From a virus: 32,566 nt of DNA. Under the pieces are notes generated by a model that worked only from the letters and a program-made list of their open reading frames with translations, had not been told where the DNA came from and did not search any database. Where the stretch lies: positions 1 to 32,566 of IMG/VR virus record IMGVR_UViG_3300042691_010833; one strand, given 5' to 3'. How positions within the stretch are numbered: the stretch's first letter is position 1; each line of letters begins with the position of its first letter. The position numbers and the translations under genes were made by a program. Shown here piece by piece: positions 3,174 to 32,566 of the stretch.

Positions 3174-5789
3174 TTACCCTAAAAAGTTAATAGCAACAAT
3201 ACCTGAATCAATTGCAGCGGTTCCGTCAAGACGCTTTAGCTTGATGGTTGATCCTGAAGCGATTGAATGTTCGATTGTTTGGTCTGAACCGGGTCCGATT
3301 ACAAGTGCTAGAGCATCTGCGACATAAAGTCCGATGAAAGCACCTGTGGTATCGAGAATTTGCATTTTCTTTACGTTGGAAGCTAGACTTGAAACAACCG
3401 TAAGTGCGGCACTTACGCTACCGGGAATGTTAGTAGAGCTAGTGTCTAGGATGTTTGCGTCTAGAAGATCGACAACCGATAGGCTGTTTACATCGACTTT
3501 ACCGATGGTGTTAGAACCAGCAGGAAGGCTTGCAACAACGTCAACTTGTAGTTCGCTACCTGAAACAGCATCGTCTAGAAGTTCGACAGCGGTTTTGATT
3601 GCCCCAAGTGTGGTTTCTGTTGCTGCTCCAGAGGGGAGTGCAGAAGAAACAACCGTTACGTTTCCAGTATCTACAGCAGTTACCTTGCCGTTTAGAGAAG
3701 AAAGGGTTGCTTCTGATGCAAGACCAGAAGGATCGACAGTAACATTAATGTTTTCAAGGGCAGCTAGAGTTGCAGCATCGAGTGCTACCGTACCGCTGAC
3801 AGGAAGCGGGTTACTAGCGTCGTTACTAATTTCAACTTCATTACTTACTACGACTGTGATATCTTCAAGTGCAGCAAGTGATGCAGCATCTAGTGCAACA
3901 ACTGAACCAGATACATCAACTTTGTCTGTGCTAAAGCTGAGATCACGGATATCTAGATCGGTTGCGGATACAGGCTGAGTAACGCCGCTACCATCTACGA
4001 GGAGTTTGTCGGTTGAAACTGTTAGTCCTGAAGGTAGCTTACCGTCGATAGATGCTACAGTAGTTTCAGAGGCAAGACCTGAAGGATCAACTGTTACATT
4101 GATGTTTTCAAGTGCGGCTAGAGTTGGACCATCTAGTGCGACAGTCGAACCGGTAACGTCAACCTTGTCGGTAGCAAACGCTAGATCGCGTACATCTAGG
4201 TCTGTTGCGCTGACAGGTTGGGTCACTCCGCTTCCGTCTACGAGAAGTCTGGTTGAACTGACTGTGAGATCGGAAGGTAGCTTACCGTCGATAGACGCAA
4301 GGGACGCATTTCCGGTATCTTGTTTAGCATCGGTGGCTAGACCGGCAGTGTCAATGGTGACATTCTCTAGTGCGGCAAGTGTTGCAGCATCGAGTGCTAC
4401 TGTGGACCCGGTAGCGTCAACTTTATCAGTGGCAAAATCAAGATCACGGATATCAAGAGCAGTTGCGCTAACAGGCTGTGTTACATTTGAACCGTCAACT
4501 AGAAGTGCTCCGAAACTCGCTGAGAGGTTTGGTAGCTTGCTGTCAATTGAGAAAAGGTGAAGGTTTGCAGTATCTTGCTTGGCTTCAGTAGAAGCACCGG
4601 TAGGAAGCGTTGAAGAGGTGACTTCTGCTTGTACGGCAAGTGCTCCAGATGGATTTACCTTAACATCTACGAATCCGCCACCACCGGCAGTAGTAACGCC
4701 GCTAATAATTCCTTTAGTTAGAATTACTTGCGATTCTGATGTAAATGGTCTACTTGCTCTATAGCTAGATGGAGATAGAGATGTTGGCTTTAGGTTGGCA
4801 ACAATAACGAGGTTTGCAGGACTAGCACCGTTTGTATATTGAACACTAAAGTATCTAAACTCGGCAGCTAGTTGATAACCGACTCCATTTGAGGAAGCGG
4901 AAAAAGTCCAAACGTGTTCGTGATGTACAGAAACGCCATCGGCTGAATAACGAATTCTTAGTCCGTCTGTCGCACTGTTAGCGTCAGAATGAACGCCAAG
5001 ATTGATGGAGTTATAATCTTTAATTTCTGTCCAGTTACCAGTAAAGATTGCACCGGGATCAAGTGTTCCAGAATAACTGTTGTTTGAATCAATTACACCT
5101 TCAAGTGTCTTAACATCAACTTGCATCTCATTTCCAGAGATAGCATTGTCAATGATTTCGACAGCAGCTTTCACCGCAGCTAGACTTGTTTCAGTTGCTG
5201 CACCTGTAGGTAGTGGGAGAGAATCGGCACTTACTGGCTGTGTAACTCCGCTACCGTCTACTAGAAGTTTATTGCTACTTACGGTAAGATCGGCAGGTAC
5301 TTTATCACTAAGAGTAACAAGTGTTGCATCTTTAGCAAGTAGAGAAACATCTGGAGATGCGGCAGTAATAGCATTAATAGTTGCACTATCAAGAGCTACT
5401 GTCGATCCTGTAGAATCTACACTAAGTACGCCATTTGTATCTGTTTTTAGGACTTGAAGATTGGTGCCGTCACTACCTGCAACAAGTTTGGCTTTACTTG
5501 GATTAGGTTGTCCTTCTTCACCGATTGCTTCTTCTGCGATTGTTGCAGAAACCCGAAGTGAGCCGGTTGCGTCTGTCGTTAGAGGAATGAACCTACCATC
5601 GGAAGCGAGAGGAGTACCGCTGTCATTTCTGACAGCCATCATCTTCGCGCCGGTATCTGTTGGTTCAGCTACTTCGTTATCTACATAACCGAATACAAGA
5701 CCACCGGGGTTTTGAATTGTTACCGAGATGGAAGCAGTTGCATCATCGTAGATTTTCTTGATAATTTGACCGGGATCAAGTAAGCTCAT
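3174..5789 (-). CDS. Large repetitive fibre protein (871 aa)
   Basis: The N-terminus MSLLDPGQIIKKIYDDATAS matches the anchor motif of two smaller proteins in this window, suggesting virion attachment there. The body contains at least three tandem modules of about 85 residues (roughly residues 400-650). Each has SIDGKLPS, LLVDGSGVTQPVSA, LDIRDLxFATDKVD and GSTVALDAATLAALENI. A second duplicated module, LPxGAATETxLxAxKxAVE followed by QVDV, occurs once near residue 200 and once near 755. The C-terminal ~100 residues (ALTVVSSLASNVKKMQIL to AINFLG) look like a cap domain. The SD AGAGG lies 6 bases before the ATG. It is probably an elongated trimeric fibre; receptor unknown. Confidence 0.85.
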   Translation of the reverse strand: MSLLDPGQIIKKIYDDATASISVTIQNPGGLVFGYVDNEVAEPTDTGAKMMAVRNDSGTPLASDGRFIPLTTDATGSLRVSATIAEEAIGEEGQPNPSKAKLVAGSDGTNLQVLKTDTNGVLSVDSTGSTVALDSATINAITAASPDVSLLAKDATLVTLSDKVPADLTVSSNKLLVDGSGVTQPVSADSLPLPTGAATETSLAAVKAAVEIIDNAISGNEMQVDVKTLEGVIDSNNSYSGTLDPGAIFTGNWTEIKDYNSINLGVHSDANSATDGLRIRYSADGVSVHHEHVWTFSASSNGVGYQLAAEFRYFSVQYTNGASPANLVIVANLKPTSLSPSSYRASRPFTSESQVILTKGIISGVTTAGGGGFVDVKVNPSGALAVQAEVTSSTLPTGASTEAKQDTANLHLFSIDSKLPNLSASFGALLVDGSNVTQPVSATALDIRDLDFATDKVDATGSTVALDAATLAALENVTIDTAGLATDAKQDTGNASLASIDGKLPSDLTVSSTRLLVDGSGVTQPVSATDLDVRDLAFATDKVDVTGSTVALDGPTLAALENINVTVDPSGLASETTVASIDGKLPSGLTVSTDKLLVDGSGVTQPVSATDLDIRDLSFSTDKVDVSGSVVALDAASLAALEDITVVVSNEVEISNDASNPLPVSGTVALDAATLAALENINVTVDPSGLASEATLSSLNGKVTAVDTGNVTVVSSALPSGAATETTLGAIKTAVELLDDAVSGSELQVDVVASLPAGSNTIGKVDVNSLSVVDLLDANILDTSSTNIPGSVSAALTVVSSLASNVKKMQILDTTGAFIGLYVADALALVIGPGSDQTIEHSIASGSTIKLKRLDGTAAIDSGIVAINFLG
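3850..4590 (-). repeat. Tandem ~250-bp in-frame repeat in the fibre gene
   Basis: Three consecutive coding repeats of about 250 bp, with LDxRDLxFATDKVD at each repeat near positions 4450, 4195 and 3945. The repeated protein block VDGSGVTQPVSATDLD is near-identical between copies 2 and 3. Boundaries are approximate because they were aligned by eye at the protein level. Confidence 0.7.
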
Positions 5790-10424: not shown

Positions 10425-10453
10425 ATTTTAGCTATTTAGGATTTAAACTTCCA
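10425..10453 (-). promoter_or_regulatory. Sigma70-like promoter for a leaderless gene (lysis pair)
   Basis: On the minus strand: a weak -35 TGGAAG (10448-10453), a 17-base spacer that begins TTTAA and ends TAGC, and -10 TAAAAT (10425-10430), 6 bases before the ATG at 10418. The spacer contains the stop codon of the GIY-YIG gene. Compared with the promoter at 9360, the boundary strings GTTTAA and AGCTAAAAT are the same, but the -35 box is poor. Confidence 0.45.
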
Positions 10454-11212
10454 GAAATAACCAGCATAAGCCGATCTTTCGCCTCTAAGTACTCGTCTTA
10501 TCGAAGAAATTCTAAAACCTTGGTCTTTTGCTTCAAACAAATTTGCAAAAACTTTATCAGGTTTTCCGAACTGACTTATGGCAATTACAGGTTTTACATT
10601 AGTGTCGTCTAATTTTTTATTTAAAATAGTTTTTGCTTCTGTAATATAATAATCTTTAGAAATATTAGAATCTTCGTAAAACCAACAATAATTATATGCA
10701 TGTTTGCAGATTCTTCTCAATGATTGACATACTGAGCCTAATTTAAATCCATTACGATCTGCATCGTGAATTGACTCAAAACGAATAACACTTAAATCAA
10801 ATCTATTTACTCCAATAATAGGTCTTTTAATACTATTTTTTTTCATTTTACTAATTCTTAGACTTCTTTGTTCAGGATTTTTCCAAACATTTTTCATTAG
10901 TTTGGATATGTAAATTCTTCCTTCTTTTACAGGAATTGAATTGTAACCTTTTGTAAAGTTCAAGGAGTCATAGAAATCAATAAAATATTGTTCAATTTTT
11001 TCCAGATGCTCTAAATCTTTAGTACAATAGATTACTTCAATCTTAAAAAATTCTATACCATGTTTTCTAATTGCTCGATGAAATCTGTACTTTGATTCTT
11101 TTAATGCTGCGCTTTTATGCTGAACCCAACGCCTATTAATTTCTTTAATGGTTGAACCAATGTAAATTTTGTTATTTTTTATATTAGTAATTTTGTAAAT
11201 GTATCCAACCAT
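10436..11212 (-). CDS. GIY-YIG homing endonuclease with repeated NUMOD1-like modules
   Basis: A 258-residue free-standing endonuclease. The GIY-YIG nuclease is at the N-terminus: GYIYKITN at 3-10, KIYIGST at 15-21, then RRWVQHKS. The C-terminal half carries two DNA-binding repeats of NUMOD1/IENR1 type. The first has VNRFDLSVIRFESIHDADR and ends in the tryptophan motif CWFYED; the second has ISQFGKPDKVFANLFEAKDQ and ends GYFWKFKS. It lies after the capsid terminator and has no SD, so expression is probably low. Its AT-rich DNA contrasts with the capsid gene. Its stop codon falls inside the promoter of the next gene. Confidence 0.92.
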   Translation of the reverse strand: MVGYIYKITNIKNNKIYIGSTIKEINRRWVQHKSAALKESKYRFHRAIRKHGIEFFKIEVIYCTKDLEHLEKIEQYFIDFYDSLNFTKGYNSIPVKEGRIYISKLMKNVWKNPEQRSLRISKMKKNSIKRPIIGVNRFDLSVIRFESIHDADRNGFKLGSVCQSLRRICKHAYNYCWFYEDSNISKDYYITEAKTILNKKLDDTNVKPVIAISQFGKPDKVFANLFEAKDQGFRISSIRRVLRGERSAYAGYFWKFKS

Positions 11213-12748: not shown

Positions 12749-13381
12749 TTAAGTCTTATTTTGCCAACTTGTATTATCGTATGTAAAATCGAATTTATTG
12801 CGTTTGAAATTATTGTCTTTTTCTGATAGATATTGAAGGTTCCAAGGCACGTGTAAACCGCAAACATTTTTATTAGTAATTGGTATAATGTGATCTACTT
12901 GCATACCTTCTGGACACTTTTGATAAATTTCATTTATTTCATCAATTTTTTCTAAATAAATTAACGCAGTTTTTACCTTTTTATCTCTTAAACGCCAATG
13001 ATTTTTGATTTTTCCAAAATTTTTTGAGCGATATTCTTTATTAAGTTGTTTAACTCTTTCTGGATTGTTTTTTCTCCATTCAGAGATTTTTTGATTTATA
13101 GCAAGTTTATTATTTTCTCTATAAACTCTTTTTTTAGCTAAAATTTGTTCTTTATTTTTTTGATAATATTCTTTATCTTTTGACAACTTCGTTTCTTTGT
13201 TTTTTTGATAATAATTTTTACATAGTTTTAGATTTTTTTGACGAACTAATTCTTTCGGTTGTCTATAAACTACAGGTTTGTCAAATGAAATATTGTTTTT
13301 TTGTCGATAAATATGAAAAGCACAGTAACCAATTTTACTAGCTGATCGCTTTGTACAATTAGTTACTGTGCAAATTTTCAT
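12749..13381 (-). CDS. HNH homing endonuclease 2
   Basis: A 210-residue free-standing HNH endonuclease, a paralogue of the one at 1180-1776. The N-terminus has a Cys/His cluster (KICTVTNCTKRS, GYCAFHIYRQK). A long Lys/Asn/Glu-rich linker follows. The catalytic core is near the C-terminus: QVDHIIP, CGLHVPWNLQYL and NNFKRNKFDFTYD. The block NKNVCGLHVPWNLQYL is identical in both paralogues. The gene is very AT-rich, has no SD, and its ATG overlaps the scaffold stop as TAATG. It sits between scaffold and capsid and ends 66 bases before late motif copy 4. Confidence 0.92.
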   Translation of the reverse strand: MKICTVTNCTKRSASKIGYCAFHIYRQKNNISFDKPVVYRQPKELVRQKNLKLCKNYYQKNKETKLSKDKEYYQKNKEQILAKKRVYRENNKLAINQKISEWRKNNPERVKQLNKEYRSKNFGKIKNHWRLRDKKVKTALIYLEKIDEINEIYQKCPEGMQVDHIIPITNKNVCGLHVPWNLQYLSEKDNNFKRNKFDFTYDNTSWQNKT

Positions 13382-19304: not shown

Positions 19305-22300
19305 TTATCTACCGAAAAGATTCTTGATTTTGTTAAATTTTTGAGCACCCTCTAGAGCCTTTTTCCCCAAACCTACACCCATCAGATTTGTCGCATCGAT
19401 GCCCATGTCAGCAACAAACCCTAGCGGTTTTTCTAGAAGATATTTATTATCTGAATCTTTTTTCATAAATAGATTAAGAAAACTTTCTCTTGGAATTACA
19501 GATTCAGCTTTTTCGAGCACATTGTGTGCAATATCGTCACCTTGGGTCTTCTTACCCATGAATCCTTCTTTAGCTGCTGTAATTGGATTTTTTCCTTCAA
19601 GTGCAGCAAGGGTGGCAGCTTTAAAAGGTTCTGTAGTTGTTCTATCAACAATTTCACCAACGGCTTCAAAAGGTTCAAGACCGGTTTCTTTTTCGGGAGG
19701 GTTGTCAAGGTAGTATGAACCACTTGGTTTTCTTACTTGAGATGCTTTGTTAAATAGTTCAAACCAAGATTTAGGTTTCTTTTCTTGGGTTGGAAGCGTA
19801 GCTTCTTCTTTCTTTGCTTGATTAATTTCAGATTCTTGTGAAGAAGTTACTCCATCATAGAGATTTGCTTGATCGTCATGTAGTTTTTCAGCGGCTTTGG
19901 TTGCTTCTTCAACATTCTTATAAATTCCTAAATGTTGTCCTGTACGTCTAAAATGATCCACTGCTTCTTTTTCAGATACAACCTTATCACCAATGACAGT
20001 TGGGATATTAATTGCTCCCTTATCTGTTGTAATAGTCATTGTTCTTACTGTAGAATAAGAACCATCCGAATTTTTTACTTTAGTTCTTGAATTTAGATCA
20101 ATATTACCGGGTTCAACAAGTGAATCATTTGAGATAGGCCCTTCGGCAGCGGGAGCTAAAGCAGCGGAAGCCATTAGACCTTTACCAGTCATATCACTGG
20201 TTTTGTCAAAAATACGTTTAATTTGACGGAAACGTGGAGCAGCTTCAGCATCCTCAGAGTTAAGCATGGATGCACCGGTTGCAGCACCCGTAATAGCTGC
20301 TGCTTTTTTAAACTTGGTACCCATAAGTTCCTCATGGTTTTTTTGAAAGGTTTTTTCTAGTTCGTTTAGCTTTTTAGCAGCAGCCTTAACATCAGTGACG
20401 TTAACATTGCCCTGCTCAACAAGTTCTTTAGCTTTTTCAAGTTCAAAATTTTTAGGAAATTCAATATGATGATTGCCTGTAAACTGTTGAAGGAGTTCTT
20501 CTCGACTTAAATTTGGATTGTCAAAATAACCATACGCTTGCTTAGGATTGCCTGATGCAAGTTTTAGCATGTCTTGTGGAGTAAAAAGAGTTCCATCAGA
20601 CATATAGAGTTGATTTTGAAATTCCTCTAAAGTTAGTTTCTTTTTAACTTTTGGATTAGAATTGTAAATGTCAACTAAATTCTGTAGAAGTTGTGGATTT
20701 TGCGAAGCTACATCGTAGACACGCCTTGGGTCGTCATTGACAGTTTTAATCATTTTTCTTTTATCAAGTTTAATACTAGGTATTGGAGTTGATAAAGAAA
20801 GGGGATAGTTAATGCTATCTTTAAGATGTTGACCTTCGTGCAGAAGTGTCGATACTAGACTTGTCTTATAATTTTCTAAATCTGGAGAGTATACAATTTC
20901 AGAAGACTTTGGATTACTTCCGTAATAATTATTATTCTCATCAAACAAAACAGGTCTTGAAAATTTACCTTGAACACCGGGGTCTAATGGTGCAGATGAT
21001 ACACCACCGCGAATTAGGTCAACTTCTGGATACATCCGACGTAATGCTTCCATGTATTGATCTTCTGGCAAACCTAGTCTTTCAAGAGCAACGTGACCCA
21101 ACAAATCTGAAGTTTTTCTTAAATTGTCACGAAATTTTAAAGGCTCAATTTGCATCAATTCTAACAGTTTAGGTGTATTTAAAACGCCGTCCTGCGTAGA
21201 TTCTTTTAGAAACTTTTCAATTAGTTGTCTAGGAATGACTTTTGTTGACGCTTCGGCATCTTCAGAGTCGCCAAGCATCGCAGCCGTACCAAGACCTACA
21301 CCAGTTAATGCCGCAGCTTTCTTTCCGTCAATTGAAGACGCTTGAGTATCATATCTACCTTCGTTAATAGCCCAATCTGGTAAGATACCTGCTTTTTGTG
21401 TAGCATATGTGGTATTGGCTGGATTTGCTCTATTTTCCGCACCTTTAGGTCCAAAGTTGACCCAACTGTTTTGACCACGAGTTTCTGTAGCAAGTGCCTT
21501 TTGTGCTTCAGGACTGAACATCCTCATGTGCGCCTGAAATGCATTTTCCTCACCGCGAGCACCAAATCCCACACCCTCTTTGGCATGGCCGAAGATATCA
21601 TGAACAATCCTGAATAGATCATTTGCAACTAGCTCTTGATCTCCGATTTTTTCTCCGGTCTTAGCAAGTAGAGGATGATCTAATTGTTGAGTAGGGTCTG
21701 TACCAAATCCTTGTTCTGTTGGATAATACCATAGATGATTATTCTCCTGCATGTCTTTAATCATGTCAGCAGAACCACCGGCATATGGATTTGGTTGACC
21801 GGGTTTAATAGGTTCAATTTTTAGACCGGATTCTTTAAGTTTTTGATATTGTTCTAAAGTTTCCTTGATTAGAGCATCATATGCACGTTTAACGTTTTCG
21901 TCGTTTGGAGCATGAGGCATTTCGTCGTATGCCTTCGCAATCCTAGTACCAAGTTCGGGATTAACTTTTTGGTAGGGAAACTCTGGAAGAACAGCTAGAC
22001 CTTTTTCTTTGTTGAACAATTTTGCAAGTTGTTCAAACTTAGAGATTTTTGCAAGTGGGGCACCGATTGCCGCATTTGCTTCTTCAGAATCGCCCAACAT
22101 AGCGGCTGTGCCGATACCGGCACCAGCTAATCCTGCGGATAATTTAGCACTGTCTTTCTTTGCTGGATCAAACTCAGCAAATTTGGAACGAACCTTTTTT
22201 GGATCAAACACAATTGTTTCTGATCCATTTTTAATTCCAGAATAACCTAAATTTTTAATCTTTTCTGATAAAAGACTATCTTGATAAGTTGGAGAATAAT

Positions 22301-22727
22301 TGTAATACTGTGGATTTTCTTTGATTATATCTTTAATTAAATTATTAGTTTCTGAACTATTAATATCAAAAATTTTTCCAGAAACATGAGTTGGAATAAT
22401 TCTTGCATTTTTTCTGTAATCAAAATATTTATTTCCAGAAGGATCATTAACTTCAGTTCCTAAAAAATTGTCAACATTTGAATTTTCTGATAGATAAGTT
22501 CCCGAAAATCTACCAGAAGTTTGTTTTTTGGGGTCAAATGCTTCAAAATTTTCAGCAGCGTTAGTGCCATGATAGTAAACTTTATCTGTATCAAACCCCA
22601 TCTCTTTAGCGCGAGCTAAACGAGAAGCCTCATCCATAGGCAGTTCGTCGGCAGCTTTCGCACTAAGTTCTGCTGCGGTTTCTGCACCTTTAGCTAATGC
22701 TTTTTTGAGCGCGGTGAACTTACTCAT
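19305..22727 (-). CDS. Multidomain polyvalent protein: ART-like and zincin-like domains (1140 aa)
   Basis: Residues about 48-190 resemble the ADP-ribosyltransferase-like domain of phage polyvalent proteins: YYHGTNAAENFEAFD, SGTYLSEN and the ending KKVRSKFAEFDPAKKDS. Residues about 230-460 hold a second domain with LFRIVHDIFGHAKEGVGFG and ETRGQNSWVNFGP. Residues about 500-800 hold a third with TLLHEGQHLKD, a HExxH zinc-peptidase motif at 630-634. Residues 868-955 hold a fourth (VEPGNIDLNSRTKVKNSDG, HFRRTGQHLGIY). Three similar Gly/Ala-rich hydrophobic linkers ending in SE(D/E)A(E/N)A separate the first domains (195-219, 469-494, 808-830). Polyvalent proteins are thought to be injected with phage DNA. 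It sits after the portal, like an internal head protein. Confidence 0.8.
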   Translation of the reverse strand: MSKFTALKKALAKGAETAAELSAKAADELPMDEASRLARAKEMGFDTDKVYYHGTNAAENFEAFDPKKQTSGRFSGTYLSENSNVDNFLGTEVNDPSGNKYFDYRKNARIIPTHVSGKIFDINSSETNNLIKDIIKENPQYYNYSPTYQDSLLSEKIKNLGYSGIKNGSETIVFDPKKVRSKFAEFDPAKKDSAKLSAGLAGAGIGTAAMLGDSEEANAAIGAPLAKISKFEQLAKLFNKEKGLAVLPEFPYQKVNPELGTRIAKAYDEMPHAPNDENVKRAYDALIKETLEQYQKLKESGLKIEPIKPGQPNPYAGGSADMIKDMQENNHLWYYPTEQGFGTDPTQQLDHPLLAKTGEKIGDQELVANDLFRIVHDIFGHAKEGVGFGARGEENAFQAHMRMFSPEAQKALATETRGQNSWVNFGPKGAENRANPANTTYATQKAGILPDWAINEGRYDTQASSIDGKKAAALTGVGLGTAAMLGDSEDAEASTKVIPRQLIEKFLKESTQDGVLNTPKLLELMQIEPLKFRDNLRKTSDLLGHVALERLGLPEDQYMEALRRMYPEVDLIRGGVSSAPLDPGVQGKFSRPVLFDENNNYYGSNPKSSEIVYSPDLENYKTSLVSTLLHEGQHLKDSINYPLSLSTPIPSIKLDKRKMIKTVNDDPRRVYDVASQNPQLLQNLVDIYNSNPKVKKKLTLEEFQNQLYMSDGTLFTPQDMLKLASGNPKQAYGYFDNPNLSREELLQQFTGNHHIEFPKNFELEKAKELVEQGNVNVTDVKAAAKKLNELEKTFQKNHEELMGTKFKKAAAITGAATGASMLNSEDAEAAPRFRQIKRIFDKTSDMTGKGLMASAALAPAAEGPISNDSLVEPGNIDLNSRTKVKNSDGSYSTVRTMTITTDKGAINIPTVIGDKVVSEKEAVDHFRRTGQHLGIYKNVEEATKAAEKLHDDQANLYDGVTSSQESEINQAKKEEATLPTQEKKPKSWFELFNKASQVRKPSGSYYLDNPPEKETGLEPFEAVGEIVDRTTTEPFKAATLAALEGKNPITAAKEGFMGKKTQGDDIAHNVLEKAESVIPRESFLNLFMKKDSDNKYLLEKPLGFVADMGIDATNLMGVGLGKKALEGAQKFNKIKNLFGR

Positions 22728-22730
22728 TAT

Positions 22731-24788
22731 TTATCTCGCGTTAGGAGGGGCCATTTCTGGATTTGGTAATAGATTTGGGTCTACTGGAGGCAAATTCGGC
22801 ATATTAACACCCTGTTCAACTCCCGGTCCTTCTAGTTGCATACCGGTAGCATCAGGGGTAGGGGTTACTCCTGCTTGTCCCTCTTGTGGCGGTGCCATTG
22901 GTCCTTGCGGTGCCTGTGTAGCATCACCCGGAGGAGGAACCTGCGGAGCTAGGGATTGTTGTCCTAGTAGAGCTAGGAGATTTGGATCGCCAGTTTGTAG
23001 GAGTGTAATATGTTCTTGAATGTGACCTAGTGTACGCTGAACAAGAGAGGCATCCTTACGGAGATCAGGGTCTTGTAGGACTTTCCTGTGCTCTAGGATG
23101 TGCTGTTTATGGTCATCGATAATGGTGACAGGCGGAATCTCACCTTCGGTCAAACTCTCGTTTTCACGACGGATAAGGTCAAGTTCGTCCTGAATGTCTT
23201 CGGTAACTGCATCTAGGCGACCAGTATTAAGAACCTGCATGAGTTGATTTGGGTTCTTGATGATCTGGTACTGCATCATCTGTTGTGCAAGTTCCATACG
23301 ACCGGCAATAGTTCTTGCAAGAGGATTGCCTACGTCTACGAACACACGAGTAATTTTGGAGATATCCTCACCAATAAACTCTTTTAGTTCTGTACGGTTA
23401 GTCTTACCGACGATTGCAATCATGCGGGGAGCAGTTGCGTAATCCTGTAGTAGCTTGATAATCGCTGTACCAACGTCTTCAACAAGTGCAATATAAGACT
23501 GTTGTAGACCGGACATGAACTGAAGTGCCATTGACTGAACGAGCGCAAGTGCTGCACCTGTCTTTAGGCTTGCTTCTGGATTACCGCGAGCTACGCTGTT
23601 AACACCTGAGATTGTTTCAGCAACACGCTCAAGCATCTGTAGGAAGTTAAAGATTTCAGCAGGAGTGTGGAGTAGCTCTAGAACTTCAGGCTTCTCCATG
23701 CTTTCGATTAGGTTCAAGCCGCCAGCCAAGCTACTAACGTTGAGGTTGCTACCGGGCTTAACCCAAAAGTTTTGTACACCGGAAGAATTCTGGTTAGTGA
23801 GAATGGTGCTGTAAAGCGAATTGATTGCTTCCTGAATGGGAAGAATGTCGAATAGTGGTGTATATGCATGTGGACTTCCTAGAATCTCACCAGCGGAGAT
23901 ACGGAAGATTGGCATTACGCGATAGGGGAGGCCAATATCCTGAAGAACAATGCTTTCTTCAAGGAATAGCATATAGCGACCGTTAGGTAGGGCATCGGTA
24001 CGCTTATGATAGAATTCGTAAACTGGAACGTCATCGGTTTCTTCTAGCTGATTGCTGATACCTAGACGATAACGGTAAATATCTGATTTTGTTTTGAGAT
24101 TCTTAATCTCGTCAGCAAGTTCTGGATACTTTACAGCAAGATCGAACTTGTTCTTAAAAGTTCTAACAAGATACCAGTCTTGATGGTGATTTTCTTTTGT
24201 ACCATCAAACATTACGTCGAAAGGCGAAAGGTTTGAAAACTCAATGTCGCCTTCATAGATCGGACGTTCTGGATCAGGTTCACCGGTAGCCTCATCCTCG
24301 AAGTAATCATATACTTCTCCGGTTGTGGCGTTCCACTCCAACTTGATAAAACCGGCACCCAAAACAACTGCATGTTCTACAGCGGTCTTGAGATACTTTT
24401 CAAGACGCTTTTCGCGCATATAGTAGTCTAGAATGCCGGTCGCTAGTTTCGTTTGGGAGATTGACTTATAGTCGGTATTAATTGCCCTAGCTTCCATTGT
24501 AGGGCGGTTGGAGGTCGTCATTGTGATGATATGACTTGCGAGGTTACGAAGGTGATTGACTGGAAGCTGTACGAGTTCGCCTTCTTCACCTGTAAAAGTA
24601 ATCTTGTGACCATCGGATACATCTTTGTAGTATGCGCCGTGATAACTTGACCACATTGTTCTTAGCTTTTCAAGATAACCAGTTGATTCTAAATTAATAG
24701 TCCAACTATCAGCTTTAGCTAAAAGAACAGATGCGGTTTTTGAACCTTCGTCTAATGCAAAATATTCTTGATTTGTTTCTTTTGACAT
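22731..24788 (-). CDS. Portal protein (P22-like)
   Basis: A 685-residue protein close in length to long podovirus portals such as P22 gp1 (725). Features are the N-terminal WSSYHGAYYKDVSDG and NHLRNLASHIITMTTSNRPT segments, the wing and clip region (SPFDVMFDGTKENHHQDW), and SGVNSVARGNPEASLKTGAA before the long helices near residue 400. A Pro/Gln/Gly-rich, probably disordered tail fills residues from about 600. Portals form the dodecameric DNA gate at one capsid vertex. The upstream HNH gene ends 3 bases before the ATG and has displaced the promoter; no strong SD remains. Its place after TerL supports the call. Confidence 0.92.
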   Translation of the reverse strand: MSKETNQEYFALDEGSKTASVLLAKADSWTINLESTGYLEKLRTMWSSYHGAYYKDVSDGHKITFTGEEGELVQLPVNHLRNLASHIITMTTSNRPTMEARAINTDYKSISQTKLATGILDYYMREKRLEKYLKTAVEHAVVLGAGFIKLEWNATTGEVYDYFEDEATGEPDPERPIYEGDIEFSNLSPFDVMFDGTKENHHQDWYLVRTFKNKFDLAVKYPELADEIKNLKTKSDIYRYRLGISNQLEETDDVPVYEFYHKRTDALPNGRYMLFLEESIVLQDIGLPYRVMPIFRISAGEILGSPHAYTPLFDILPIQEAINSLYSTILTNQNSSGVQNFWVKPGSNLNVSSLAGGLNLIESMEKPEVLELLHTPAEIFNFLQMLERVAETISGVNSVARGNPEASLKTGAALALVQSMALQFMSGLQQSYIALVEDVGTAIIKLLQDYATAPRMIAIVGKTNRTELKEFIGEDISKITRVFVDVGNPLARTIAGRMELAQQMMQYQIIKNPNQLMQVLNTGRLDAVTEDIQDELDLIRRENESLTEGEIPPVTIIDDHKQHILEHRKVLQDPDLRKDASLVQRTLGHIQEHITLLQTGDPNLLALLGQQSLAPQVPPPGDATQAPQGPMAPPQEGQAGVTPTPDATGMQLEGPGVEQGVNMPNLPPVDPNLLPNPEMAPPNAR

Positions 24789-24791
24789 AAG

Positions 24792-25286
24792 TTAGATTTC
24801 CACATGGGACCAGCATCGTCCGCTTTTAATATTTCTAATTGTGATACGACTTACATTGTATTTTTTTGCAAGTAGACGTTCACTATTGCTAAAAATTTCA
24901 GCTTTAATTAGTTTTACAACTTCTTCATTCAATTTCGCACCAATAAGTTTGCTACCTTTTTTGCGTAAATTTGTAATGTAAGAATGTTTTACATTTTCAG
25001 ACGGAGTTACCCATTCAAGGTTACTTAAACGATTATCTAACTTATTGCCGTTTTTATGGTTTACTTCAAATTCTTGAGTTTTGTAACCTAAAAAAGATTC
25101 AGCAACTAAACGATGAACACTAAACGCTTTATTACGTTTGATTGTGTTTGTATAAAGACCAATTCTGAAGTAACCGTTTCTTTCAGATGGAGTTAAAATT
25201 TGCAAAGTTACTTTATTGCGAACGCGACCAGAGTCACTCACTTGGTATTTGCCTTCGTAATTAATAATATCCTTCCAAATTTCCAT
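24792..25286 (-). CDS. HNH homing endonuclease 3 (NUMOD4-HNH-HTH)
   Basis: A 164-residue free-standing endonuclease. Residues 1-30 are a NUMOD4 module (EIWKDIINYEGKYQVSDSGR). Residues 55-95 are the HNH core (FSVHRLVAESFLG, FEVNHKNGNKLDN, LSNLEWVTPSEN). Residues 117-160 are a helix-turn-helix DNA-binding end (KLNEEVVKLIKAEIF, LAKKYNVSRITIRNIKSG). It belongs to a different subfamily from HNH 1 and 2. It starts 9 bases after late motif copy 6 with SD GGAG and is inserted between TerL and portal, so it takes the position of first gene after the promoter. Confidence 0.94.
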   Translation of the reverse strand: MEIWKDIINYEGKYQVSDSGRVRNKVTLQILTPSERNGYFRIGLYTNTIKRNKAFSVHRLVAESFLGYKTQEFEVNHKNGNKLDNRLSNLEWVTPSENVKHSYITNLRKKGSKLIGAKLNEEVVKLIKAEIFSNSERLLAKKYNVSRITIRNIKSGRCWSHVEI

Positions 25287-27757: not shown

Positions 27758-28474
27758 ATGAGAATGATTCTTTTAGTCTTATCCCTCCTCTTTGTACCCT
27801 ATCCAACCCAAGCTGAACAAAAACTTATTAGAGTAGGCATCGTAGATACAGGGCTTGATCTCGCCGATCGTAGGTTCTTTAGTGTGTTGTGTAAAAATGG
27901 ACACAGGAACTTTGTTAACGATACTAACGATACATACGATTATCACGGCCACGGCACTCACGTTGCTGGTACGATTAAGAATCATTCAGGTAAAGGTAAC
28001 TTTTGTCTTGTCATCCTAAAATATTACGACAAAGACACAAACTTAATGTCTAACGTTTACAACTTCCGTAGAGCGATTCAACACGCTATTGACCTTAAAC
28101 TGGATATCGTAAACATCTCAGCAGGTGGTCCACAATTTGACGAGACTGAGTATTTACTACTGAAGCGAGCAAATAAGATTCGCTTTATTACCGCCGCTGG
28201 TAATGACAATCAAAATCTAGACATGCCGTACAATAAATTTTATCCGGCATCATATGGACTGCCTAATATTATTGTAGTGGGAGCACTTGAGGAATCTGGA
28301 TTCAAACTATCTACCAGTAACTATGGTGAAATTGTCAAACATTGGGAGATTGGTCAAAACATACATGCAGAATTACCTAATGAAAAGTTTGGATACCTTT
28401 CCGGCACCTCAATGGCAACAGCAGTCAAAACCGGCAAAATCATTAAGCTAATGCTAAATCGGAAATCACAATGA
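27758..28474 (+). CDS. Secreted subtilisin-like serine protease (S8)
   Basis: A 238-residue protein. Residues 1-19 are a signal peptide (MRMILLVLSLLFVPYPTQA). The catalytic triad is complete: Asp30 in IVDTGLD, His65 in HGHGTHVAG and Ser218 in SGTSMATA; the oxyanion Asn149 is in AAGNDN. The mature domain of about 219 residues is short for the family, and the catalytic core starts only ~5 residues after the signal peptide, so the usual inhibitor propeptide is absent. It is the first gene of the rightward operon and overlaps the next start by ATGA. It likely acts in the envelope or outside the cell; the substrate is unknown. The start could also be the second ATG, two codons on. Confidence 0.92.
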   Translation: MRMILLVLSLLFVPYPTQAEQKLIRVGIVDTGLDLADRRFFSVLCKNGHRNFVNDTNDTYDYHGHGTHVAGTIKNHSGKGNFCLVILKYYDKDTNLMSNVYNFRRAIQHAIDLKLDIVNISAGGPQFDETEYLLLKRANKIRFITAAGNDNQNLDMPYNKFYPASYGLPNIIVVGALEESGFKLSTSNYGEIVKHWEIGQNIHAELPNEKFGYLSGTSMATAVKTGKIIKLMLNRKSQ

Positions 28475-31945: not shown

Positions 31946-32098
31946 ATGATTCTACCTGTCGATATCATTCAGCTTCTAACCGACGAGGAGATCGAAACGC
32001 TAATCCGTTTTTACGGTACGGAATTGTATAAACCTTACTTGGCGAAAGTTAAAAGAAAGTATGCCAAGATGCTAGAAATCTTGGATGATGACGAATGA
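31946..32098 (+). CDS. Small hypothetical protein (50 aa)
   Basis: A 50-residue frame that starts on the base after the lipoprotein stop and ends TGA at 32096-32098. It reads MILPVDIIQLLTDEEIETLI, then a Lys/Tyr helix (KPYLAKVKRKYAKMLEIL), and overlaps the next gene by ATGA. It is helical and amphipathic, with no known family. Overlaps on both sides support it. Confidence 0.65.
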   Translation: MILPVDIIQLLTDEEIETLIRFYGTELYKPYLAKVKRKYAKMLEILDDDE

Positions 32099-32566
32099 AT
32101 TCAACAGTCGATATCCCACTACAGCGAGTTTACGTTAGGAACGAATTTCTAGGGTCTAATCTCACCGGACTCACTCCGGGGTATTGGCATTCTGTCACTT
32201 CTGTACCTGCGCGAGCATTTACCTGCCATGTGGTTCTAGACAATGGTGCTCATTGGGCCGGTATTCCAATTCACGCTATTGTCACTAAACCGGACGCATC
32301 TGCAATCGACTTGAGTGTAGCGCAAAGCTACGACTGCTTCAGCTACGACGTTCAGGTAGTAAGGCACACGTTCCTTAGAGATCAGCTAGTTAGCTGTCTA
32401 AAGACCAAGGTTAAGGGACGATACCTATTTACCATCCACAGTGTTGACCCGTTGGGTAAGGCACCCTTTGCTGAATTTCCAGAACAATACAAGACCTTCA
32501 CCTTTATCGAAACAGAAGCCGGGAACATCATCGCAAGACCGAATAACTATATCCGTTGGATTGACC
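32095..32566 (+). CDS. Hypothetical protein, partial (cut by right edge)
   Basis: An open frame from ATG 32095-32097 runs to the window edge, giving 157 residues. It begins MNSTVDIPLQRVYVRNEFLG and is rich in beta-type sequence (HWAGIPIHAIVTK, YDVQVVRHTFLRDQLV, GRYLFTIHSVDPLG). No catalytic motif or membrane segment is visible. It is coupled to the 50-aa gene by ATGA. The missing end prevents a firmer call. Confidence 0.7.
   Translation, partial: MNSTVDIPLQRVYVRNEFLGSNLTGLTPGYWHSVTSVPARAFTCHVVLDNGAHWAGIPIHAIVTKPDASAIDLSVAQSYDCFSYDVQVVRHTFLRDQLVSCLKTKVKGRYLFTIHSVDPLGKAPFAEFPEQYKTFTFIETEAGNIIARPNNYIRWID

Follow-up and report, generated by a model that had tools for sequence, protein, structure and literature searches.

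The locus raises the question of how a long phage protein with several unlike domains is divided, and what the short hydrophobic separators between those domains do. The window, i.e., the whole stretch of 32,566 nt that was analyzed, is a 32.6-kb uncultured virus record encoding a terminase, a portal, a major head protein, and tail fibers. The portal is of the P22/SU10 type, and 3 nt lie between its stop codon and the start of the 1140-aa ORF under study. The features are as follows.

22731..24788, minus strand, portal protein gene, directly upstream of the polyvalent protein gene (PF16510 E = 6e-9, phrog_156 E = 8e-24)
19305..22727, minus strand, polyvalent protein gene, 1140 aa (from the ORF list)
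22164..22622, minus strand, ART-like domain, residues 36-188 (PF18760 ART-PolyVal E = 2.5e-5, alignment A1)
22071..22145, minus strand, separator 1, residues 195-219, KLSAGLAGAGIGTAAMLGDSEEANA, putative cut behind its last residue (strict pattern)
21327..22052, minus strand, FGHAKEG domain, residues 226-467 (phrog_3170 E = 2.9e-16)
21249..21323, minus strand, separator 2, residues 469-493, KKAAALTGVGLGTAAMLGDSEDAEA, putative cut behind its last residue (strict pattern)
20307..21248, minus strand, HEGQH-bearing domain, residues 494-807 (motif only)
20241..20306, minus strand, separator 3, residues 808-829, KAAAITGAATGASMLNSEDAEA, putative cut behind its last residue (strict pattern)
19308..20240, minus strand, C-terminal module, residues 830-1140 (tblastn match of residues ~870-957)

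Four homing-endonuclease-like genes on the minus strand are interspersed among the head and tail genes (1180-1842, HNH/EndoVII; 10436-11212, GIY-YIG; 12749-13381, HNH; 24792-25286, HNH), two of which have the C-terminal segment IIPI(S/T)NKNVCGLHVPWNLQYL in common. The product of 3174-5789 (minus strand) is 871 aa long and contains repeated segments similar to VDGSGVTQPVSATDLDIRDL; it gave a weak family match only (phrog_10590, E = 0.021) and is probably a fibrous virion protein. The ORF at 32095-32565 (plus strand), truncated by the window end, matches the phage ferredoxin family phrog_3704.

Four modules were distinguished in the 1140-aa protein, three of which had been named in a sequence-only reading of the window. 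The first, ART-like, domain is flanked by the strongly conserved motifs RAKEMGFDTD and RSxxAxFDP (RSxxAxFDPxK); the window segment itself scored 25.5 bits against PF18760, under the Pfam gathering cutoff of 31.2, and seven of the eight aligned members of this segment matched the family, with a best E value of 2e-15. The FGHAKEG domain proved to be phrog_3170, a phage domain of wide distribution that occurs in cyanophages, mycobacteriophages, and others and has no Pfam family. Its identity to 13 relatives was 40-58%, with H-D-x-(F/Y)-G-H, GEE, H, and RGQNS invariant, and its AF2 model reached a pLDDT of 83.8. The HxxxxH...E spacing in this domain resembles that of iron-binding aromatic amino acid hydroxylases; the hydroxylase fold is not claimed, because the top Foldseek matches, which are such hydroxylases, had an E value of 0.24 at best and a second aligner gave none at Z >= 2.

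For the third domain, described previously as zincin-like, the HEGQH motif was located at residues 630-634 (20826-20840). Pfam, PDB, and phage searches found no zincin family or relative; the domain, which has no obvious third ligand, is labeled zincin-like from its motif and is a possible metallopeptidase. The fourth domain (residues ~870-957), absent from the sequence-only reading, showed 38-50% identity in tblastn to proteins annotated as DNA transfer, structural, or IVP-C-like in phages SPN1S, Bas106, 4_4512, and Klyazma, and in Bas106 and 4_4512 it is encoded by the last of the three P22-like DNA-transfer genes. The viral contigs scanned with the C-terminal module gave no matches.

Disparate effector-type domains (ART-like, FGHAKEG, and ejection protein) are combined here in one ORF, and this ORF lies among head genes, behind the portal in the window and directly behind the portal (L128 and L144) or the terminase large subunit (L064 and L208) in relatives. 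From the gene order and the ejection-protein domain, this polyvalent protein is probably packaged and injected. This class of proteins is known; the separator is a new, testable feature of it.

Each separator consists of a Gly/Ala-rich hydrophobic stretch followed by S-E-(D/E)-A-(E/N)-A, and the three end at residues 219 (...LSAGLAGAGIGTAAMLGDSEEANA followed by AIG), 493 (...AAALTGVGLGTAAMLGDSEDAEA followed by STK), and 829 (...AAAITGAATGASMLNSEDAEA followed by APR). A strict pattern, defined as a 12-residue hydrophobic window without D, E, K, R, or H, then a helix-breaker, a polar/acidic stretch, and A-x-A, was matched three times in the window, always in the polyvalent ORF, versus 0.05 times in shuffled proteins (Poisson P ~2e-5). 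The claim of three linkers with such ends was thus borne out. Their description as near-identical fits the first two linkers, which share 12 of 14 aa, and is loose for linker 3 (6 to 8 of 14). At identical linker residues, codons agreed in 5/12, 1/6, and 3/8 cases, against 5.3, 2.3, and 3.6 expected from codon usage. Because the agreement is no higher than codon usage predicts, the peptide itself, as judged from these codons, is constrained, and not its DNA; the same counts led us to reject the idea that linker DNA was recently duplicated inside the gene.

That the linkers separate domains was supported by the AF2 model, in which pLDDT fell below 50 at all three of them (191-226, 461-498, and 804-874), flanking the confident domain 230-460, and by relatives, in which domain homology often ends at a linker. 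The whole-protein model had a mean pLDDT of 54.7 and is useful for the boundaries and the FGHAKEG domain only. Membrane crossing, one of two functions suggested earlier for the linkers, found weak support in the form of stable transmembrane helices, which were rejected: over 19 residues, the Kyte-Doolittle score of the window linkers peaked at ~1.1, and only 14% of 95 linkers reached 1.6. Signal-peptide-like h-regions fit better.

The same element was found between domains in ~70 uncultured-phage ORFs, several of them Pfam-confirmed polyvalent proteins (ART-PolyVal, PBECR5, and LPD23) and several adjoining portal or terminase genes. A hydrophobic run of ~14-21 residues precedes Pro/Ser at -6; Ala stands at -1 and, with one exception (Val), at -3, and -2 is free. 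The uncharged run spans 14-17 residues in the window and up to 23 in relatives. Among 29 linkers, P, S, or G occupied -6 in 27 and Ser/Gly/Ala occupied +1 in 22, -4 and -5 were mostly E/D/Q, and -2 was free. The Ala residues at -3 and -1 in this set are partly a product of how its members were chosen, and the features at -6, -2, and +1 were not selected for; control scans matter for this reason. When a degenerate DNA pattern representing the end of the linker was run against 2.9 million viral contigs, A-x-A gave 109 stretches, and 45 of the 70 unique ones examined stood behind an uncharged hydrophobic run, in ORFs of up to 2322 aa and many without ART. With Gly for both Ala residues (G-x-G), 17 stretches were obtained and a hydrophobic run in 0/13 (P = 1e-5); with A-x-(D/E) the figures were 25 stretches and 2/23 (P = 2e-6). 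Since hydrophobic runs were almost absent from these control scans, Ala at -1 is, by this pattern search, part of the element, and Gly does not stand in for the Ala pair.

A further view came from loci retrieved with the ART segment, which were chosen without regard to the linker (alignment A1 query; the best 80 viral loci among at least 399 relatives, plus three loci from bacterial genomes). They contained 22 strict-pattern matches versus 0.65 in shuffles. In L079 and L112, an ART module, two more ART-like modules, and a C-terminal module are joined with a linker at every joint; L190 carries, in this order, PBECR5, an LPD23 that contains HELQH, and a further module; and L165 has three linkers. 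The ORFs of L189 and of L158/L196 begin with the element itself, as in MVSPLLKLRSLGATGAAAAAMQPEDAEA followed by GLLNQ. The element was missing from several polyvalent relatives that carry these same domains, which counts against the processing reading preferred below; our search found no cultured phage carrying it, and in the open-access literature, to which the search was confined with subscription papers outside it, no paper describing it was found. Many linker proteins, among them L079, L101, L107, L155, and L165, bear at the C-terminus a short hydrophobic tail preceded by D/E (AVDVVL, ATEFLL, ASDVFL, and AALDLM), possibly a packaging signal.

The chain behind the ART domain (...FDPxKxxSxNLLAG...) is hydrophobic and often closes in P/S-x-E/D/Q-A-x-A if a further domain follows. 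Among non-redundant cases, A-x-A was present in 14/28 internal ART tails versus 0/31 C-terminal ones (P = 3e-6, or 3e-5 minus two loose matches among the 14), whereas the hydrophobic part was equally common in both (21/28 and 24/31). These P values are indicative, because the C-terminal tails are short (22-62 aa past FDP) and relatedness was ignored. The motif was missing in some internal cases (L006, L008, L086, L099, and others).

Exchange of domain cassettes at the linkers had also been suggested, and it is supported in relatives and finds no counterpart among the three window copies, whose DNA is no more alike than codon usage predicts. In comparisons between relatives, 20 of 47 internal ends of DNA homology were, in both genes, no more than 30 nt away from the end of the linker, the pairs being non-independent. 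Several ended exactly at the linker, as in L064 and L071, which are 91% identical across 633 nt and unrelated beyond, and many homologies started ~100-150 nt ahead of it, at the RSxxAxFDP motif. The modules reassort, with the ART module preceding several different ones. An apparent exchange of cassettes at the separators is supported in these relatives because their homology often stops there. Modules behind a separator (L101, L155, L109, and others) can start like the N-termini of whole ORFs of relatives (MAIGSRLRGILDELIATGYPDE versus GVLSNLIKAGYPEE), as though each module had formerly been a separate gene.

Cleavage, the other function suggested earlier, is our preferred reading of the linkers, sharpened from the sequence pattern to a type I signal-peptide A-x-A site. 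We put at roughly 40% the probability that the separators are built-in, signal-peptide-like processing sites in an injected polyprotein, cut behind A-x-A, most likely by LepB. The sequences show that the element exists, is conserved and specific, and lies between modules that are exchanged at it, in a gene located among head genes. We infer that the polyprotein would be packaged in the virion and then injected, and that each separator would present, behind a hydrophobic segment, a c-region in which -3 and -1 are Ala. The chain would be cut behind A-x-A once ejected into the cell envelope, and the ART-like, FGHAKEG, HEGQH, and C-terminal ejection modules would separate to act at different places. 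The favored cutter is signal peptidase I (LepB) of the host inner membrane, because of the A-x-A rule and the N-terminal form of the element. A wider proposal, in which internal signal peptides delimit effectors in injected polyproteins of tailed phages, host signal peptidase cuts them at entry, and the separator is the standard joint for cassette swaps, is more tentative.

The separators have a charge-free hydrophobic h-region (14-17 residues in the window) and small neutral residues at -3 (Ala, once Val) and -1 (Ala); in Gram-negative SPase I sites Ala-x-Ala makes up 58.9%, and Ala and Val dominate P3/P1 (PMC2638155). The c-regions of such sites are usually neutral and polar (PMC2638155), whereas E/D/Q fills -4/-5 in most linkers, and the acidic residues (D/E) there count against signal peptidase I. 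The position also departs from the N-terminal one, being internal in the window and N-terminal only in L158, L189, and L196. A functional signal peptide should moreover act during synthesis and so compete with packaging, which is a further argument against this enzyme. Host proteases acting on incoming proteins have precedents in P22 gp7, processed by host OpdA (PMC8402733), and in the nuclease colicins, processed on import in an FtsH-dependent manner (PMC4026351); the role of LepB in colicin D import is non-catalytic, which counts against it as the cutter (PMC4026351).

The separators might instead stay uncut and act on membranes, by aiding insertion or translocation or as tail anchors, while also being recombination-tolerant joints. 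This is unlikely: the C-terminal ART domains do keep a hydrophobic tail without A-x-A, which speaks for it, but Ala at -3/-1, Pro/Ser at -6, and the absence of A-x-A at C-termini are left unexplained, and most linkers are less hydrophobic than transmembrane helices. Conservation solely as a recombination joint spread by DNA homology would account for the clustering of homology breakpoints at the linker and the RSxxAxFDP motif ahead of it, but codon sharing among the three window copies is not above chance and the amino acid pattern persists between unrelated DNA, which makes this explanation very improbable.

Another cutter is conceivable for the same sites. A phage prohead-type protease could cut the separators during head maturation, the hydrophobic piece serving as a capsid-targeting leader like the T4 and SPN3US propeptides. 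The polyvalent genes are located in head/packaging operons, the element can be an N-terminal leader, and there are known cases of ejected head proteins whose propeptides a protease removes, as in SPN3US, where gp245 cuts after A-x-E (PMC10052503). We nevertheless consider this protease an unlikely agent, about on a par with uncut segments. The (S/A/G)-x-E motif, rejected as the linker cut site, was found in just 12/29 linkers, the A-x-(D/E) control had almost no hydrophobic context (2/23), and S78 proteases were present in 1/18 linker-bearing records and ClpP-type and S49 ones in 0/15, the records often being partial. Less probable again is cutting in cis by the HEGQH metallopeptidase-like domain, a mechanism that Iyer et al. 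put forward for MPTase domains, the classical candidates for polyvalent-protein processing (PMC5512222). An HExxH motif adjoins linkers in the window and in some relatives (L005, L104, and L190); however, many linker proteins have none, and the window domain is without a detectable relative or an obvious third ligand. The window also encodes a small subtilisin-type protease (27758-28474, plus strand; PF00082 E = 5.5e-23) with all of the D, H, and S motifs and an apparent N-terminal signal peptide of its own, MRMILLVLSLLFVPYPTQA. It was rejected as a conserved linker protease; subtilases occurred in one of the 22 records searched, namely, the window itself.

The splitting of polyvalent proteins into working units and the delivery of their domains to different places were raised, and left unsettled, in PMC5512222. 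A short, repeated, and recognizable site makes such processing directly testable, offers a marker of domain boundaries in uncharacterized giant phage proteins, and reveals the points of effector-cassette exchange. Should the cutter be host signal peptidase, phage entry would draw on an essential protein-export enzyme, and if the internal-signal-peptide reading is true, one gene would deliver multiple effectors.

The closest known systems share parts of this arrangement. Phage polyvalent proteins are likewise multi-domain, reside in late/head neighborhoods, and combine ART, PBECR, LPD, and MPTase-like domains, and their processing into units by MPTase autoprocessing has been proposed (Iyer, Burroughs, Anantharaman, and Aravind 2017, PMC5512222). 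In the window protein and its relatives, in contrast, the candidate cut site sits at the junctions, also in proteins without any HExxH; a word search of the main text of PMC5512222 found neither linker, signal peptide, nor transmembrane segment. The P22-type ejection proteins (gp7, gp20, and gp16) are similar in that domain 870-957 occupies the third DNA-transfer position of P22-like phages and that gp7 loses a leader to host OpdA (PMC8402733), and differ in being three separate genes; mature gp7 starts with KGGKG, and no such A-x-A separator has been reported for it. Nuclease colicins are also incoming multi-domain proteins processed at the host inner membrane before a domain acts, but their FtsH-dependent cut lies near D420, LepB is non-catalytic for colicin D (PMC4026351), and no A-x-A separators have been reported. 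Type I signal peptides (SPase I/LepB) resemble the separators in the hydrophobic core, the helix-breaker, Ala/Val at -3, Ala at -1, and often basic residues ahead of the core; the separators differ in being mostly internal and repeated, in their acidic c-region and Pro at -6, and in belonging to proteins expected to be packaged rather than exported. In viral polyproteins, internal signal sequences delimit products and are cut by host signal peptidase in the eukaryotic endoplasmic reticulum, and the phage separators parallel these by analogy only, without homology.
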